Of a DNA stretch of 64,000 nucleotides, positions 57,034 to 64,000 are shown in pieces. Made by a program: the position numbers and the translations under genes. Within the stretch, counting starts at the first letter, position 1, and the number at the start of each line of letters is the position of its first letter. This stretch comes from Trichocoleus desertorum ATA4-8-CV12 (lineage in GTDB: Bacteria > Cyanobacteriota > Cyanobacteriia > FACHB-46). The notes below the pieces were generated by a model. That model was not told the origin of the DNA and made no database searches. It saw only the letters and a program-made list of their open reading frames with translations. The stretch lies in NCBI GenBank assembly GCA_019358975.1, contig JAHHIL010000001.1, forward strand, positions 434,001-498,000, given 5' to 3'.

Positions 57034-58767
57034 TTAAGGACTGGAAATAGAAACTTGCTGGGGGCGGTAATCGGAGCCTGACTTAGTAGCGCAAAAGCCC
57101 AGATCCATAGTTTGATTCGGCTGTAATATCTTTCCCCAATCAGGTGGGGTGACTCGATACTGTAGACCTTGACGATTGAAGCTACCATTCCAGCTGTTGT
57201 TAATGCTGGCTTGGTTCATCCGAAAAGCCAACTGCCAATTCTGGGCTGCAATCTTACCGGAATTCGTCACTAAGAACCTGGTACAAAAGCCAGTAGCCCA
57301 ATCTGACTCGATCGCTGTCTTCACTTGCAGCTGAGCGTTAGTCGGTCGAGTTGTTGTGGTTGCAGATGAAGCAGGTGAAGACGGAGCAGGTAAAGATGCG
57401 GTAGGTGATGTGGCGGGCGATCGCGAGCTTGGACGTTGACCTCTCGGAGTTGGTTGAGTTCTGGAGGGAGAAGTAACACGGTTAGTCGGGAAAGAAACTG
57501 CCGGAGAATTAGGCTTGGGTAAGAGCTGGCTGAGGAGTGCTTGCTTGTTACGTTCCACCGTGCGCCAATCATCTTGTAAGACGCCTCCAGTATCTTTACT
57601 GTTGGGGTTCCAGCTCCAGTAAGTAAAGCTCAGTTGTTTCTGCCGAATAAAGTCAACCAGCTGCCGTTGCCAAATTCCCTCAGGGGAGTTGCGGTCTACC
57701 TGTCGCCCCCCAAACTCTCCAATCAAGATAGGCGCTAGTTTCTGAGTGGCAATGTAATGAAATCCAGTTTCCCAGCGACTATAAAGGTTTTTAGGAAAAG
57801 CTGCTCCTGAAAACCAAGGTTGGTCGTAAACACCGGGGCCATATTCATGGGGCGAGTAAACTAATTTATGCTTGAGCGCTAAGCGAACAGGGAAACGCTT
57901 GACACCTTCTAAGTTGCCACCTTGCCAGTGAACTGCTAGCTTCTGCCCTGGTACATTGTTTTCGACTCCCTCGACCACAATTAGCCAGTTAGGATTCACC
58001 GCCAAAATGGCATTGCCTGCTCGCTCAGCCGCCAGTCGCCAATCCGTCGCTGAGTTATTTGTGCCCCAACTGGCGCGACCATGCGGCTCATTTTTAAGAT
58101 CGGCTCCAATCACATGCGGCTGGTTTTTGTAGCGAGTTGCTAACATTTTCCAGGTGTCGATCCAATCTGCTTCGGTAAAGCCATCACCATACCAAAGCTC
58201 CGGAATGCGTTGATCGTTAAGCTGGTGACAATCCAACAAAATCAGCAATCCTTGTTGCCCCGCTGCTTGAATCACAGCATCCATAATTTCTAGAGGCGAT
58301 TTACCCTCCAAGGCTTGATTTGCGCCAATACTAAAATCAATCCCGCTCACCTCAGCAGAGCGTAGGGCTTGTACTGAGAAAGGAAGGCGAATGATGTTGT
58401 AGCCTAAACCCTTGATTTGCGCCAACATCTCACGGTAGTCACGAGCCCATAAACCGTGAGGAGCGTGCAGTTCTGTCTCTATGCCGAACCAATTCACCCC
58501 CCGCAGTAAGACTGGCCGACCTCTGCCATCAATAATTTGAGCACCTCTGGTCATTAGGGGGAAAGCGATCGCGGGGGTAGCATTCGCTGGCTCTAAGCTT
58601 GGATAGAACTGTAGTCCCAAACTGAGACATAAGCCAACCAGAGCTAAGGCTAACCACTGGAGTAAAGGACGCGATCGCCAGTAGTTCCGGACATGAACCA
58701 CTCTTTGGTAATGCCGTCCAAAAAAAATTGAGACTTGCTGGAAGAATTCGCTCATATTTTTAGTCAA
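57034..58767 (-). CDS. Membrane-anchored GH5 cellulase with C-terminal CBM2
   Basis: 577 residues (ATG at 58767 or 58755). A basic cytosolic N-terminus of about 34 residues precedes one hydrophobic segment (LLQWLALALVGLCLSLGL), read as an uncleaved signal anchor or long signal peptide. The GH5 catalytic domain (about 70-405) starts GAQIIDGRGRPVLLRGVNWFGIET. Acid/base Glu227 sits in DLKNEPHG and nucleophile Glu351 in LIGEFGG; HEYGP and WSWNPNSKDTGG complete the site. A Pro/Ser/Thr-rich linker (about 412-470) leads to a CBM2-type domain (about 472-577) with ATGFCTRFLVTNSG, NSWNG and a Cys pair (Cys at about 492 and 562). It should cut beta-1,4-glucan, perhaps remodelling the cell's own cellulose or sheath. 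It reads toward the rpo operon. Confidence 0.9.
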   Translation of the reverse strand: MTKNMSEFFQQVSIFFGRHYQRVVHVRNYWRSRPLLQWLALALVGLCLSLGLQFYPSLEPANATPAIAFPLMTRGAQIIDGRGRPVLLRGVNWFGIETELHAPHGLWARDYREMLAQIKGLGYNIIRLPFSVQALRSAEVSGIDFSIGANQALEGKSPLEIMDAVIQAAGQQGLLILLDCHQLNDQRIPELWYGDGFTEADWIDTWKMLATRYKNQPHVIGADLKNEPHGRASWGTNNSATDWRLAAERAGNAILAVNPNWLIVVEGVENNVPGQKLAVHWQGGNLEGVKRFPVRLALKHKLVYSPHEYGPGVYDQPWFSGAAFPKNLYSRWETGFHYIATQKLAPILIGEFGGRQVDRNSPEGIWQRQLVDFIRQKQLSFTYWSWNPNSKDTGGVLQDDWRTVERNKQALLSQLLPKPNSPAVSFPTNRVTSPSRTQPTPRGQRPSSRSPATSPTASLPAPSSPASSATTTTRPTNAQLQVKTAIESDWATGFCTRFLVTNSGKIAAQNWQLAFRMNQASINNSWNGSFNRQGLQYRVTPPDWGKILQPNQTMDLGFCATKSGSDYRPQQVSISSP

Positions 58768-59365
58768 TGCTTCGTTTGGCTATCAAACTCATTGAAGAAA
58801 TTGCTGGAAATAGCAGCTTAATGGTCATTGAGCTAATAAATAGTTCCGAGGGATTCGACCGTAACAAGCAGGTAGTAAAAACTACGCCCTACGACGCCGA
58901 CCCAAGCCGAAAGTGTCTTTTTATCGAAAAATTCACAATTTCATCAGTCAGCTTTATCTAAACTTCTTGCAGTCCAGACCTGTTACTAGAAAAAGTATAC
59001 CTTTTGAGTTATTTACTTTTTGGAGTTGCCTAACTCCATGAAGGCGCAGCTTATCTCTAAGGGGATAGACGTAGGTAGATGCTTGAGCTTAGAGGGTCTA
59101 AGGCAAAATTTACATCATCTTCATCAGCGTCTAGGGGTGTCTTTATCAGGTCTATACGGAAATTACTGAGATACCTATTAATGTTTATAAAGAAGAGCAG
59201 TTACTCCACTTAAGTTTTCTAGGGTTAATTCTCTGCTCACCCAGTCAGCCGCTGCTTTTTTTTAGCCCTGAGTTATAGAAGAGCCAGGGAAATGAAAACA
59301 GTAAACATCATTTCCACGACGAAACTAACGACCTTTGAAACCCGTATTTGCTTGGAGTTCAAAAT
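58768..59365. other. 598-bp intergenic region
   Basis: A 64-codon frame (58767-58961) has no ribosome site and no recognisable sequence, so I do not call it. GGAGTT-GCCT-AACTCC forms a small hairpin near 59022-59037. The promoters for the divergent cellulase gene and the gene at 59366 must lie here. Confidence 0.5.
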
Positions 59366-60193
59366 ATGCCTGTATCGCCACTTAAGAGCTTTTTACTACC
59401 TGCTGTTCTTCTCTCTAGCACGGTGTTTTCTAGCTTGACGTTGCCACTAGTTGTGTTGGGTTCACAACCAGTTGATATTCGGATGCAACAAGAACCTGTT
59501 TTTAGTGGTCAGCTAAAAGATGTAGCAGCTCCCTATTTAGGGTTTGCAGCGGCGCTGAGCTTGGGTGCAGGAATTGCAAGTATCGCGGTAACGGGTTGGC
59601 GGCACTCTTCTCGTAAATCTGCTCAAGCCGAGGAACAACTGTCTAGCCTCAAAGAGAATTTGCAAGTAAAAGAGATCCAGCTAGAAGAGCTGAAGTTATC
59701 TGAAGTTCGCTTGGCAGCTACGGGACTCTCTGATTTTCTGCATGACAAACCTGCACAGGCTGTGACAGCAACTGTCGTTAATGTAGCTCAACCTGTAGTA
59801 ATTACCGCTTCAGATGCAGGCGCAGCTGAAGTTGCAACAGTTTCGACTCCAACGGTCGAGGTAAAAACTGATGCACCTCGTTCGATGTCGATGCAAGCTG
59901 CCGTTTCTGCTTTGCATCCCGCTCAAGCTTTCCTCAGCTTTGCTCAAGCAGGGGCAACGACTGAGGCAGCACAGTTGCAAGCCACCGCAGCTCATGCCCA
60001 AGTAGATGAGTTACAAACTCAACTGAAACAAATTATGTCTCAGTTAGAAGTGTTGCAAGGAGCCTTCCAAGATTTACCTCAATTAGATGCTGGACGAGCT
60101 ACTAGCCTCAATCGATTTCATTCCAATATGAGCCATCAGCCTCGCTCACAAAAGGTGGAGCCTGTCCACGTACAACAGCGAGTGGCTTCCTGA
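59366..60193 (+). CDS. Hypothetical exported/membrane protein with coiled coil
   Basis: 275 residues from the ATG at 59366. A hydrophobic N-terminus (FLLPAVLLSSTVFSSLTLPLVVLG) looks like a signal sequence, and a second hydrophobic stretch (YLGFAAALSLGAGIASIAVTGW, about 58-79) is likely a membrane helix. A coiled-coil segment (about 85-115, QAEEQLSSLKENLQVKEIQLEELKLSE) and a long Ala/Val/Thr-rich region follow. The C-terminal part contains another Gln/Leu-rich helix (AHAQVDELQTQLKQIMSQLEVLQGAF) and a basic tail. I recognise no family. The arrangement suggests a protein held in the membrane that spaces or scaffolds something through its coiled coils, which is inference. Confidence 0.65.
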   Translation: MPVSPLKSFLLPAVLLSSTVFSSLTLPLVVLGSQPVDIRMQQEPVFSGQLKDVAAPYLGFAAALSLGAGIASIAVTGWRHSSRKSAQAEEQLSSLKENLQVKEIQLEELKLSEVRLAATGLSDFLHDKPAQAVTATVVNVAQPVVITASDAGAAEVATVSTPTVEVKTDAPRSMSMQAAVSALHPAQAFLSFAQAGATTEAAQLQATAAHAQVDELQTQLKQIMSQLEVLQGAFQDLPQLDAGRATSLNRFHSNMSHQPRSQKVEPVHVQQRVAS

Positions 60194-60305: not shown

Positions 60306-61091
60306 CTAGCGAAGTTGCTGGTCGGGTGAGAGTGGGGCAGTAGTTTGGCTAATATTGGCGCTGGCTGCTGGTTTGAGATCTTCTGTGTTTGATTGTTGAG
60401 GGGTGCTCCCAGCGCGATCGCCCCATCCACCGTTGATATCAGCTGCGGTAATGGCTGGAGGAACTGTTTTACCTGTTGGCAGGGCTACGGGTAATGCTTG
60501 ACTCACTTGCAAGTAACGTTGACCATCTGTGGTAAAGCGGGCTAAGTTACCTTCTAGTTGCAGGCCTTGCTCTTGTAATTTTTGGGAAATAGTAGCTGGT
60601 TGATTCGCAGGCTCGAAGGTTGCTAAGAAGACGACATCAGGCGCGGGAGTCATGGGAAGTTTGAGTTCCGGTTGATTGAGTTGCCATCCTTCACGAACTT
60701 GACCATTGGGTGCAACTTGCCAAAGATTCAGCGAGGTTTGCCATTTGCCTTGGTTGACTGCAACGTTTTGCCGACTCAAGACTGTATAAGTTAGCTGAGA
60801 TGAGAGTTCTGATGACAAGTGCCCAGCGGCTATGGGTGCTGTGTTGCTGGCAGAAAGATAGCGAATGGCAGCAACGGTGATCTGGCTTTGGTCGGGTAGA
60901 TTGGTGCTGCCTGAGACGGCATAGACCCCCGATCGCCCGGCGGGTTTTACTTGGAAGCTCAAATCAGCGACAGGAGCTTTTGCCTCCGAGCAACCAGTGC
61001 CAGCAAGAGCTAGGACGCTCAGGCAATAGGGTAGCGCTTTCTGCCAAACCTGCTTGGCTTGGAAGGTGAGATCTAGAAACTGATGTGGCAT
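60306..61091 (-). CDS. Hypothetical exported lipoprotein
   Basis: 261 residues from the ATG at 61091; the frame extends 19 codons further upstream, but this start fits a signal peptide. LPYCLSVLALAGTGCSEAK is a lipobox-type ending. The mature protein begins VADLSFQVKPAGRSGVYAVSGSTNLPDQSQITVAAIRYL, then beta-rich text (YTVLSRQNVAVNQGKWQTSLNLWQ) and VFLATFEPANQPATISQKLQEQG. A polar tail of about 40 residues ends it. No family is recognised; the beta-rich core resembles periplasmic sandwich domains. It is convergent with the coiled-coil gene to the left. Confidence 0.65.
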   Translation of the reverse strand: MPHQFLDLTFQAKQVWQKALPYCLSVLALAGTGCSEAKAPVADLSFQVKPAGRSGVYAVSGSTNLPDQSQITVAAIRYLSASNTAPIAAGHLSSELSSQLTYTVLSRQNVAVNQGKWQTSLNLWQVAPNGQVREGWQLNQPELKLPMTPAPDVVFLATFEPANQPATISQKLQEQGLQLEGNLARFTTDGQRYLQVSQALPVALPTGKTVPPAITAADINGGWGDRAGSTPQQSNTEDLKPAASANISQTTAPLSPDQQLR

Positions 61092-61545
61092 GGCGATCGC
61101 GAGTAAGTTGTTAATAAAATAACAAATCCTATTAGTTGATGAAAGCAAAATTAGAATAGCATCAACTACTATTGAGCCTGATATTCCTGATAAAAATAGT
61201 ATTTTAATATTCGGGTTTTTTGTGTGAAAAATTAATGAATTTCAGCAGATTGTTGTACCACTAGATCTCGAAGTATTGTATTTCCTTAGATAGGCCTTTT
61301 TGAGGCCGTTCAAGGGGTGGGTGCTGTCTAAGTTATTTGACTTCCATTTTGATTCTAATCAGCATTTGGATGAATTCAGATCCAAATATCAGCGAAGCGT
61401 TTAGATGAAGCAGTTAAATAAGATTTTTATTTTCCTTATGACCGCTGCTTCTGCTAAAGTTTTCAGCAGTCTCAGTGTTTTCGACAGTCTTAGCTTCAAT
61501 ATTCGCTAGACCGCATCAGACAGCACAGTAGGTGTGAGCCATATC
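61092..61545. other. 454-bp intergenic region upstream of the porin-like gene
   Basis: AT-rich sequence with no supportable gene. It holds the divergent promoters of the lipoprotein gene and the large gene at 61546; neither could be located with confidence. Confidence 0.5.
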
Positions 61546-64000
61546 ATGCTTGATTCTCGTTGGTCTATCTTTCGTAGCTATTTATTCTCTGTTAGAGTCC
61601 TGGCATCTGGCTCAATCTCATTGTTTTTGGCTGCTGGGTTAATTCAGGCAAAGCCTAGCTTGGCAAACTCTCGCCGTCAGCAAGAGCCAACGCCTCAAGC
61701 AACCTCTCCGAATCCAGCCCCAGGTACTCAGAGACAAGCTGACCCAGAAAGAAAAGAAAGGAAAAAGATCAGAGGCAAAAACGCTACACCTCAGGCTCGC
61801 TCCGGGGTGGCTATGGCCGCTCCCCTCAATGCCCCTAAAAGTTTGTCTACGGCTGAAGTGGATCTAACTCAGCCGCTTGAGCTAAAAACTACTGATCTGG
61901 AAATTAGTGCCCCTCCTGAGCGATCGGCCACCTCTACTGCTCCTGAGCGATCGCTTTCTGCTCAAGCCACATCGGTTCCTACCGCTCCTGTTAGCATCTC
62001 CCCTACTGCTCCTATCCAGACGGCTGATAATTACTGGCAGATGAACGGTACGGGTTTAGGTGTAACTGGACCCTATGGCCCTGGAATGTGCGGAGATAAT
62101 TGCAATAGTTGGCCCCAACCCCTAGGGCAGGGTAGAAATTTACCCACGCTTTCTACCACCGAACAACCGCTGCCAGTTCCAACTCCATTGCCTACGGTTC
62201 GCTCAGAAGCATCCAGCAGTAATTTTTCTCCTCAGCAATTGCCCTGGATGTCTGGAGTGCCTGTACCCGCGCCAGGGTGGGGAGTTGCCAATGGTAATGC
62301 TTATGGTAATGCTTACCCCTATCCCTATGCAGTTGGGCAGTTGCCTCCTGTTCAGCCATCACCTATGCCACCACCTGGAGGATGGAATCCTTATGGGAGT
62401 CCTTATGGTTGGAATCCCAATGGTGGTTTCTACCCGATGGGGCAGTCACTTCCTGCGCCGATGCCCGCTCCAATGGCTCCCGGTAGCGGTTCTAACCCTT
62501 CTAATAGCTCGAATAATGTCTATTTCTACAATCGATTTGCTCCATCCCCCTCTCCTAATTCAGCGCCTGTAGCTACGCCCTCAATGCCTAATTTGAGTGC
62601 GCCACCTGTAGAGCAAAATTTTTATCAAGGAGCGCCTAGCTATCCCAGTAATTTTTATCAAGGAGCGCCGAATTACCCAAACAATTTCTCGAATGGAGCC
62701 CCTAACTATCCGACTAATTTCTATAACCAAAATCCAGGTTATCCGACTAATTTCTCTAGCCCTATCCCACCTGGTTATCCAGGTAACATTTATAACCAAA
62801 ATCCAGGTTATCCCAGTAATTTTCCTGGGCCTATGGTAGGTTATCCCGGTACTGCTTATCCCAATAATTCCTATACGCCAGTTCCTGGTTATCCGAGCAA
62901 TTTTTATCCCAACAATCCTGGCTACCCCGTTAATTTTCCTGGGCCTACGGTAGGGTATCCTGCTATTCCTTACCCTGCTAGTGCCTACCCACCCGCTCCG
63001 GGTTATCCCAGCAATTTTGCAGCCCCGCCTCCAACCTATCCTGGTAACTTTTACAACGCTGCGCCCAATTATTCTGGAAACCCTGCTCCCAGCAGCCCTT
63101 ATCCCAGTGCACCCTACGTCCCCTCCGGTGCTCCGAGTCCCTATGGTGCTCCAAGTCCCTATGGTGCTCCAAGTCCCTATGGCAGTGGTTATCCAGCGGG
63201 GCAGCCGACAGCTTTTCCACCATTCCAAAACACACCAACCCCGACAGCGCCTCAAAGCACCACGATGCCTCCGAGTAACTTAGCGCCCGCTGCTGCTTTG
63301 GAAACTCAGCCAGAAACCTCTAGACCACTTTTGCGAAGTACGGCTTTAAGCCAACCCGCTGTGCAACTGCAAGGCGTATATCTGTATCAAGGAGATGACT
63401 CATCTGCTAGGGCTCGCTTATCAGCAGCTTACCCCTTGACACCGAATATTCTGTTTGGTGGAACGTTGGATTTGACCACGGGCCAAGGGTTGGCAGATTC
63501 TCAGCAAGAAGGTCTGAGCTTGAATGAGCTGTTTGTTGCTACCTCTCCCCGGGACTTGCCAAACTTGCGGTTTGTGGTGGGGCAATTGGACTTAACGTCC
63601 TATTTCGATCGCAACAGTTTTGCCAAGGATGGAGCCAGCCACTTCTTTAACCCCGTGTTTCAGACCAACTCCGCTTTAACGGCCACAGGAATCGGCTCTC
63701 GGCCTGGAGCGCTGGTTAATTGGTCTTTGACTGACAACATCGAAGCGAGATTTGCGGCCTTTTCTTCCGCCCGGAGTATCGGAGATTTCAGCTTGGATGG
63801 CTTTGCGGGTGAACTGGGACTGCGCTACGGCAACGCCATTATTCGGGCTACCTACACTACGGGTCGAGAAACTGGTGCAGGCGATGGCTTCCGAGAAATC
63901 TTTCAGGTGAATCGAGGTGATGGGATAACTGGGCCTCAACGGGGCGATCGCGAGGAAGGCTTTGGCATTAACGCAGAAGTCTTTATCCCTAGCCTCAATA
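61546..64000 (+). CDS. Large exported protein: Tyr/Pro/Asn/Gly-rich repeat region plus porin-like barrel (3' end outside window)
   Basis: Open from the ATG at 61546 to the right edge, 818 codons without a stop. A signal peptide (about 1-40, hydrophobic VLASGSISLFLAAGLIQA) is followed by a Ser/Thr/Pro-rich stretch. About residues 246-555 are dominated by degenerate repeats of the form GYPSNFY / NYPTNF / GYPGNIYNQNP, ending in three exact GAPSPY units. After about residue 600 the text changes to alternating strands: GVYLYQGDDSSARARLSAAYPL, LRFVVGQLDLTSYFDRNSFA, HFFNPVFQTNSALTATGIGSRPGALVNWSLTD and LGLRYGNAIIRATYTTGRE. This resembles OprB-type carbohydrate porins. The likely location is the outer membrane, with the repeat region as an extended periplasmic or surface segment. 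The barrel's C-terminus, needed for proof, is missing. Confidence 0.75.
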   Translation, partial: MLDSRWSIFRSYLFSVRVLASGSISLFLAAGLIQAKPSLANSRRQQEPTPQATSPNPAPGTQRQADPERKERKKIRGKNATPQARSGVAMAAPLNAPKSLSTAEVDLTQPLELKTTDLEISAPPERSATSTAPERSLSAQATSVPTAPVSISPTAPIQTADNYWQMNGTGLGVTGPYGPGMCGDNCNSWPQPLGQGRNLPTLSTTEQPLPVPTPLPTVRSEASSSNFSPQQLPWMSGVPVPAPGWGVANGNAYGNAYPYPYAVGQLPPVQPSPMPPPGGWNPYGSPYGWNPNGGFYPMGQSLPAPMPAPMAPGSGSNPSNSSNNVYFYNRFAPSPSPNSAPVATPSMPNLSAPPVEQNFYQGAPSYPSNFYQGAPNYPNNFSNGAPNYPTNFYNQNPGYPTNFSSPIPPGYPGNIYNQNPGYPSNFPGPMVGYPGTAYPNNSYTPVPGYPSNFYPNNPGYPVNFPGPTVGYPAIPYPASAYPPAPGYPSNFAAPPPTYPGNFYNAAPNYSGNPAPSSPYPSAPYVPSGAPSPYGAPSPYGAPSPYGSGYPAGQPTAFPPFQNTPTPTAPQSTTMPPSNLAPAAALETQPETSRPLLRSTALSQPAVQLQGVYLYQGDDSSARARLSAAYPLTPNILFGGTLDLTTGQGLADSQQEGLSLNELFVATSPRDLPNLRFVVGQLDLTSYFDRNSFAKDGASHFFNPVFQTNSALTATGIGSRPGALVNWSLTDNIEARFAAFSSARSIGDFSLDGFAGELGLRYGNAIIRATYTTGRETGAGDGFREIFQVNRGDGITGPQRGDREEGFGINAEVFIPSLN
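62620..63050 (+). repeat. Degenerate YPxNF(Y/P) coding repeats
   Basis: About a dozen imperfect units centred on Tyr-Pro-x-Asn-Phe/Ile, spaced 10-16 codons apart, within the porin-like gene. The codons vary, so this is an old protein-level repeat rather than a recent DNA expansion. Confidence 0.85.
63127..63180 (+). repeat. Three 18-bp tandem repeats encoding GAPSPY
   Basis: GGTGCTCC(G/A)AGTCCCTAT three times in a row, with a single G/A difference in the first copy. A recent slippage-type expansion inside the porin-like gene. Confidence 0.95.

Follow-up and report, generated by a model that had tools for sequence, protein, structure and literature searches.

The window analysed here, a 64,000-nucleotide stretch of the genome of Trichocoleus desertorum ATA4-8-CV12, ends inside a forward-strand reading frame that starts with an ATG at position 61546 and stays open for 818 codons up to the window edge. 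An alternative in-frame GTG lies ahead of this ATG, at 61534. A reading made from the sequence alone (hereafter the sequence-only reading) had pointed to this uninterrupted frame, and extension beyond the edge led to a TGA stop codon at G000:C1:498327-498329 (window-equivalent 64327-64329). The gene thus spans G000:C1:495546-498329 and encodes a protein of 927 residues, composed of a signal peptide, a disordered Pro/Tyr/Asn/Gly-rich stretch of about 560 residues and a 16-strand barrel of the OprB family (PF04966), in that order. Upstream of it lie genes for a divergent lipoprotein, a membrane/coiled-coil protein and a GH5 cellulase. The features discussed below are the following:

57034..58767, reverse strand: GH5 cellulase with CBM2, recognized by domain scan
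59348..60193, forward strand: membrane/coiled-coil protein
60306..61148, reverse strand: divergent lipoprotein of a family without a Pfam match
61546..64000 and on to G000:C1:498329, forward strand: candidate outer-membrane cellulose exporter, with its final 109 codons and stop outside the window
61546..61668, forward strand: signal peptide, residues 1-41, assigned by reading (LASGSISLFLAAGLIQAKPSLA/NS)
61669..63330, forward strand: disordered Pro/Tyr/Asn/Gly-rich arm, residues 42-595, from its composition and the low pLDDT of a homologous arm
62089..62103, forward strand: CGDNC, whose two cysteines are the only ones in the arm
62641..63051, forward strand: YPxN[F/I/S] repeats spaced mostly 11 residues apart, from sequence counts and shuffles
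63127..63180, forward strand: three exact GAPSPY units
63331..64000 and on to window-equivalent 64326, forward strand: OprB-family 16-strand barrel, from a Pfam profile, a homologue model and a fold search
63586..63630, forward strand: LDLTSYFDRNSFAKD, a near-invariant segment at strand 5 and the long loop behind it, from an alignment and the homologue model

The single RefSeq record seen for the barrel family (WP_051056019.1) is annotated as hypothetical. Searches gave one match among plasmid records and none among phage records.

Several lines of evidence identify the window protein as a divergent OprB-family barrel. Pfam and NCBIfam scans of the whole protein listed no family, the biased composition of the long arm being the probable cause, and the barrel portion alone matched the Pfam OprB profile with 29.3 bits (cut-off 22.9; E 7.3e-7). 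At the limit of the search, 13 of 18 members of the barrel family matched this profile. AlphaFold2 modelling of a homologous barrel (L044, 72% identical, with an alignment of 43 sequences) predicted sixteen strands with a pLDDT of 90.1 and a pTM of 0.86, and located YFDRNSFAKD...HFFNPVFQTNPAL, which hardly varies within the family, in the long loop that follows strand 5. When this model was submitted to Foldseek, the top PDB match was Pseudomonas putida OprB (4gey; E 1e-12, TM 0.68), followed by general porins; BcsC was absent from the best 50 fold matches. A viral fold library gave porin-like matches only, which were uninformative, and a profile search of PDB sequences with the barrel returned no match. 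The sequence-only reading had recognized the signal peptide and an OprB-type barrel and had seen no SLH domain; the first is evident by eye, the second agrees with the profile and the model, and a Pfam scan found no SLH domain in the window protein. Two OprB paralogues of the same genome (L125 and L127) do carry, by reading, an SLH-like segment and a coiled coil ahead of their barrels.

The arm that precedes the barrel is of a very different character. Residues 331-600 consist of 26% Pro, 11% Asn and 11% Tyr, and contain nine YPxNF units, compared with a mean of 0.04 (maximum 2) in 2000 shuffles. The YPxNF low-complexity region and the GAPSPY units described beforehand are both present, and the GAPSPY copy number is variable, since two congeners have one unit each against three in the window protein. 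Comparison with the same two congeners gave barrel identities of 98.8% and 94.5% and arm identities of about 86% and 53-57%; dN/dS was 0.22-0.31 for the arm and 0.02-0.03 for the barrel, which is under very strong constraint. Among homologues the arm ranges from about 70 to 930 residues. Its Pro enrichment is kept (7-31%), whereas its Tyr content is not conserved (0-11%). The suspicion that the repeat region might be a short variable linker of no conserved composition thus met a divided answer: the spread in length and in Tyr speaks for such a linker, and the persistent Pro enrichment, beside a strongly constrained barrel, speaks against it. We considered the YPxNF repeat as a conserved element and rejected it, as other lineages bear different repeats (Pro/Tyr/Asn/Gly or TFNQLLN). 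Lineage-specific tandem repeats seen in the same arm include YNPALGQYPYYPQ..., NYNPGYGQYPNYPQ... and TFNQLLN...APLPPLPG (L061, L122, L117 and Nostocales loci). The arm is, in short, a fast-evolving segment, probably a tether, of variable length and with lineage-specific repeats.

Two short elements recur within these arms. A homologous arm was predicted to be disordered (pLDDT about 27-52) except for short helices, one of which falls at the motif EDALIGQ. This motif, approximately E-x-[LF]-I-x-Q-x-x-G, was found in 24 of 73 non-redundant arms (including L026, L029 and L045-L109) against 0.2 by shuffling, an enrichment that is descriptive only, because the regular expression was picked after the sequences had been seen, its first version having been replaced after the motif search and shuffles. 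One congener has the motif intact (EADLVHQIAG), whereas the copy in the window protein is degenerate. The second element is a cysteine pair of the form CXnC, represented in the window protein by CGDNC; 27 such pairs occur in 94 homologous sequences, the arms being otherwise Cys-poor, and the barrels examined contain no cysteines.

The decisive context was cut off at the window edge, as the barrel gene heads a cellulose-synthase operon. Closely spaced on the same strand are the genes for the barrel, a TPR protein, a BcsZ-like GH8 enzyme, BcsB and BcsA-PilZ, in this order, and the start of the TPR gene overlaps the stop codon of the barrel gene (ATGA). The GH8 domain (E 3.8e-40) and BcsB (E 2.9e-104) were matched with high significance, and BcsA scored above the cut-off of TIGR03030, with a PilZ match (E 4e-12) and the usual DxD, TED and QxxRW motifs. 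No lipobox was recognized by reading in the N-terminus of the TPR protein, and the operon showed no further gene for an outer-membrane protein. In BcsB (P0005, G000:C1:502080-504635), the signal region is followed by about 80 residues rich in Pro, Ala and Glu.

We also examined the distribution of the barrel in a sample of 291 cyanobacterial genomes from 130 genera. The barrel was detected in 88 genomes and a strong BcsB match in 85, the class of weak BcsB matches (19 genomes) having been set apart after the scores were seen; all 85 genomes with strong BcsB also possess the barrel. The association has a Fisher p of 1e-70 over the 291 genomes, a value not corrected for phylogeny. In the three genomes with the barrel only, the gene sits next to the end of its contig; the TPR gene is retained in two of them, and a partial GH8 in one of those two. 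At the level of individual genes, 97 of 118 barrel hits are followed on their own strand by BcsB at a distance of 2.0-5.3 kb, and among the remaining 21 there are 19 without a BcsB hit on that contig and two with BcsB about 27 kb away. In 78 of 80 named loci the barrel is succeeded by the TPR gene, while two loci stop at a contig edge, and the full order TPR, GH8, BcsB, BcsA is present in 56 of the 80. Loci L107 and L122 have the barrel and TPR genes, and the 10 kb downstream are without other operon genes. On plasmid pMIC7113.02 (93 kb) of Allocoleopsis franciscana PCC 7113 (L131), the barrel-TPR pair and bcsBA lie on opposite strands with a homologue of the lipoprotein between them. The BcsC barrel domain BCSC_C (PF05420) was found in only 5 of the 291 genomes, always as a weak and partial match, and neither in G000 nor in the window protein.

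The 19 genomes set apart (e.g. G006, G018, G030 and G062) have weak, mostly partial BcsB-like hits and neither barrel nor lipoprotein; many of these hits fall in frames of about 645-685 residues and belong to a different family. Many genomes, such as G083, G141, G210 and G275, carry two barrel and two BcsB genes, which suggests two cellulose systems per cell.

Two of the upstream genes follow the barrel closely. The lipoprotein family is present in 84 of 291 genomes, all of which have the barrel; no convincing Pfam or PDB relative was found, and a profile search of PDB sequences was not significant. Of the 72 genomes that contain the coiled-coil family, 71 also have the barrel. In the sole exception, G007, the coiled-coil copy has a stop and the BcsB match is short, perhaps the remnants of a decayed locus. 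From this co-occurrence both families look like parts of the cellulose system, and the lipoprotein family is likely to be a new component of it.

Taken together, the best reading is that cyanobacterial Bcs has a split BcsC, in which a separate TPR scaffold is joined by a recruited OprB-type porin that would act as the glucan channel. The gene order, the co-occurrence, the predicted fold and the predicted disorder of the arm are results of the analysis; glucan passage and arm docking are inferred. BcsA, with its c-di-GMP-binding PilZ domain, would make the glucan and, together with BcsB, move it across the inner membrane; the periplasmic TPR protein would stand in for the TPR solenoid of BcsC and the 16-stranded OprB-type barrel for its barrel, and GH8 would trim stray glucan. 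The arm is proposed as a tether because the TPR module and the barrel are not one chain; it may hold the barrel to the TPR/BcsB machinery, carry glucan across the peptidoglycan, or both, with its short motifs as putative docking sites. Docking is proposed on the basis of composition and of the short motif, of which the window protein has only a degenerate form. A barrel of 16 strands has its two termini on the periplasmic side, so the arm is expected to be periplasmic, and the earlier idea of a sticky arm extending to the sheath was rejected on this topology.

We consider it quite probable that the product of this gene is the outer-membrane channel in the cyanobacterial Bcs cellulose-secretion machine. 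It should be weighed against export that OprB and the general porins resembled by the barrel are diffusion porins in which a loop folds inward. The lack of BcsC among the best 50 fold matches, the incomplete loci L107 and L122 and the opposite strands of bcsBA and barrel in Allocoleopsis count on the same side. The barrel could accordingly be an uptake porin for cello-oligosaccharides released by GH8 and GH5, co-regulated with synthesis, with export proceeding through a TolC-like or other channel. Sugar uptake is known for OprB family porins, the GH5-CBM2 cellulase lies nearby in 28 of the 80 loci, and a TolC route has been proposed for Xcs-type cyanobacterial cellulose synthesis (PMC12430437). 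However, the constant partners of the barrel are TPR, BcsB and BcsA, GH5 being much less constant; moreover, BcsAB with a TPR scaffold requires an outer-membrane pore, BCSC_C barrels are essentially absent, and the operon offers no second outer-membrane gene. An uptake role therefore seems unlikely to us.

The function of the arm is less clear-cut. Even if the barrel exports glucan, the arm might be a mere length-variable spacer that binds nothing in particular, with repeats produced by slippage and tolerated within a disordered stretch. The differences among lineages in arm length and repeat type, the contrast in dN/dS between arm and barrel, and the lack or degeneration of the motif in many arms, that of the window protein included, would all fit a spacer. 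Yet the dN/dS of the arm is well under 1, its Pro enrichment persists, and the motif and the CXnC pairs recur across distant lineages; we regard the spacer as a serious possibility, somewhat on the doubtful side. A third suggestion, close to the sequence-only reading, is that the Pro/Tyr arm binds peptidoglycan or self-associates and so anchors the outer membrane in place of an SLH domain. The arm does occupy the position taken by SLH and coiled coil in L125 and L127, and its expected periplasmic location would suit such a role, but the Pfam scan found no peptidoglycan-binding domain, Tyr content is not conserved, and the gene is associated with BcsB instead of envelope functions in general, all of which makes an anchor quite improbable. 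For the split-BcsC reading in its fullest form (an OprB sugar porin recruited as exporter, separate from TPR, with a Pro-rich tether bearing docking motifs and two undescribed accessory families, the lipoprotein and the coiled-coil protein), we put the chances at about even.

Earlier accounts leave a place for such a channel. A phylum-wide survey in 2015 detected no cyanobacterial BcsC_C domain and left BcsB and BcsC out of consideration (PMC4594306), and a 2025 review describes cellulose secretion and outer-membrane crossing in cyanobacteria as poorly defined and gives the TolC model alone (PMC12430437). Some alphaproteobacteria have lost BcsC, and their export route is unknown (PMC7112194). 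Another survey from 2015 listed five BcsC-type barrels in cyanobacteria, including alr3754, which is induced about 10-fold on nitrogen starvation (PMC4365693). By locus number, alr3754 is near alr3757 (cellulose synthase). We found in it no link to OprB, no operon analysis and no split-BcsC proposal; it may nevertheless concern part of the same system, which limits our claim to novelty. A literature search largely confined to open-access papers found no proposal of this system, and in the accounts found cyanobacterial cellulose export across the outer membrane is unassigned. The expectation that this gene would prove to be something undescribed appears to have been right. The present analysis singles out one particular gene, conserved widely and labelled hypothetical in the RefSeq record seen, as a candidate that probably encodes the missing cyanobacterial cellulose channel. 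If this is true, an ordinary sugar porin can be converted into a polymer exporter, and candidate parts become available to engineer phototrophs that secrete cellulose.

Alginate export also divides the task between a barrel, AlgE, with 18 strands, and a scaffold, AlgK, which is a lipoprotein. The arrangement proposed here is alike in having barrel and repeat scaffold as separate polypeptides; it differs in its 16 strands and in a TPR scaffold that lacks a recognizable lipobox. Myxococcus has export porins whose barrels are encoded next to polysaccharide genes (PMC9603273). These Wzp porins resemble the window protein as stand-alone barrels next to synthesis genes, and they are needed for export; however, they have 18 strands, are PgaA-like and serve an OPX/Wzy pathway (PMC9603273). 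With OprB itself (PF04966; 4gey) the window protein shares the profile match, the sixteen strands, the conserved long loop after strand 5 and the best PDB fold, whereas it is divergent, shorter and tied to a cellulose operon, and has a disordered Pro-rich arm where the paralogues L125 and L127 have SLH and coiled coil. E. coli BcsC combines a TPR solenoid and a 16-strand barrel pore in one chain; BcsB docks at TPR#1, and a putative cello-oligosaccharide is held by the TPRs (PMC11379886). The likeness here lies in a 16-stranded barrel and a TPR module encoded with bcsA, bcsB and bcsZ, although the two modules are separate overlapping genes, the gene order differs, and the barrel is of OprB type, not BCSC_C, and preceded by a long Pro-rich arm. 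The window protein is therefore not a BcsC in the strict sense, being neither one chain with the TPRs nor a BCSC_C barrel, but by analogy we propose that it may work like one.
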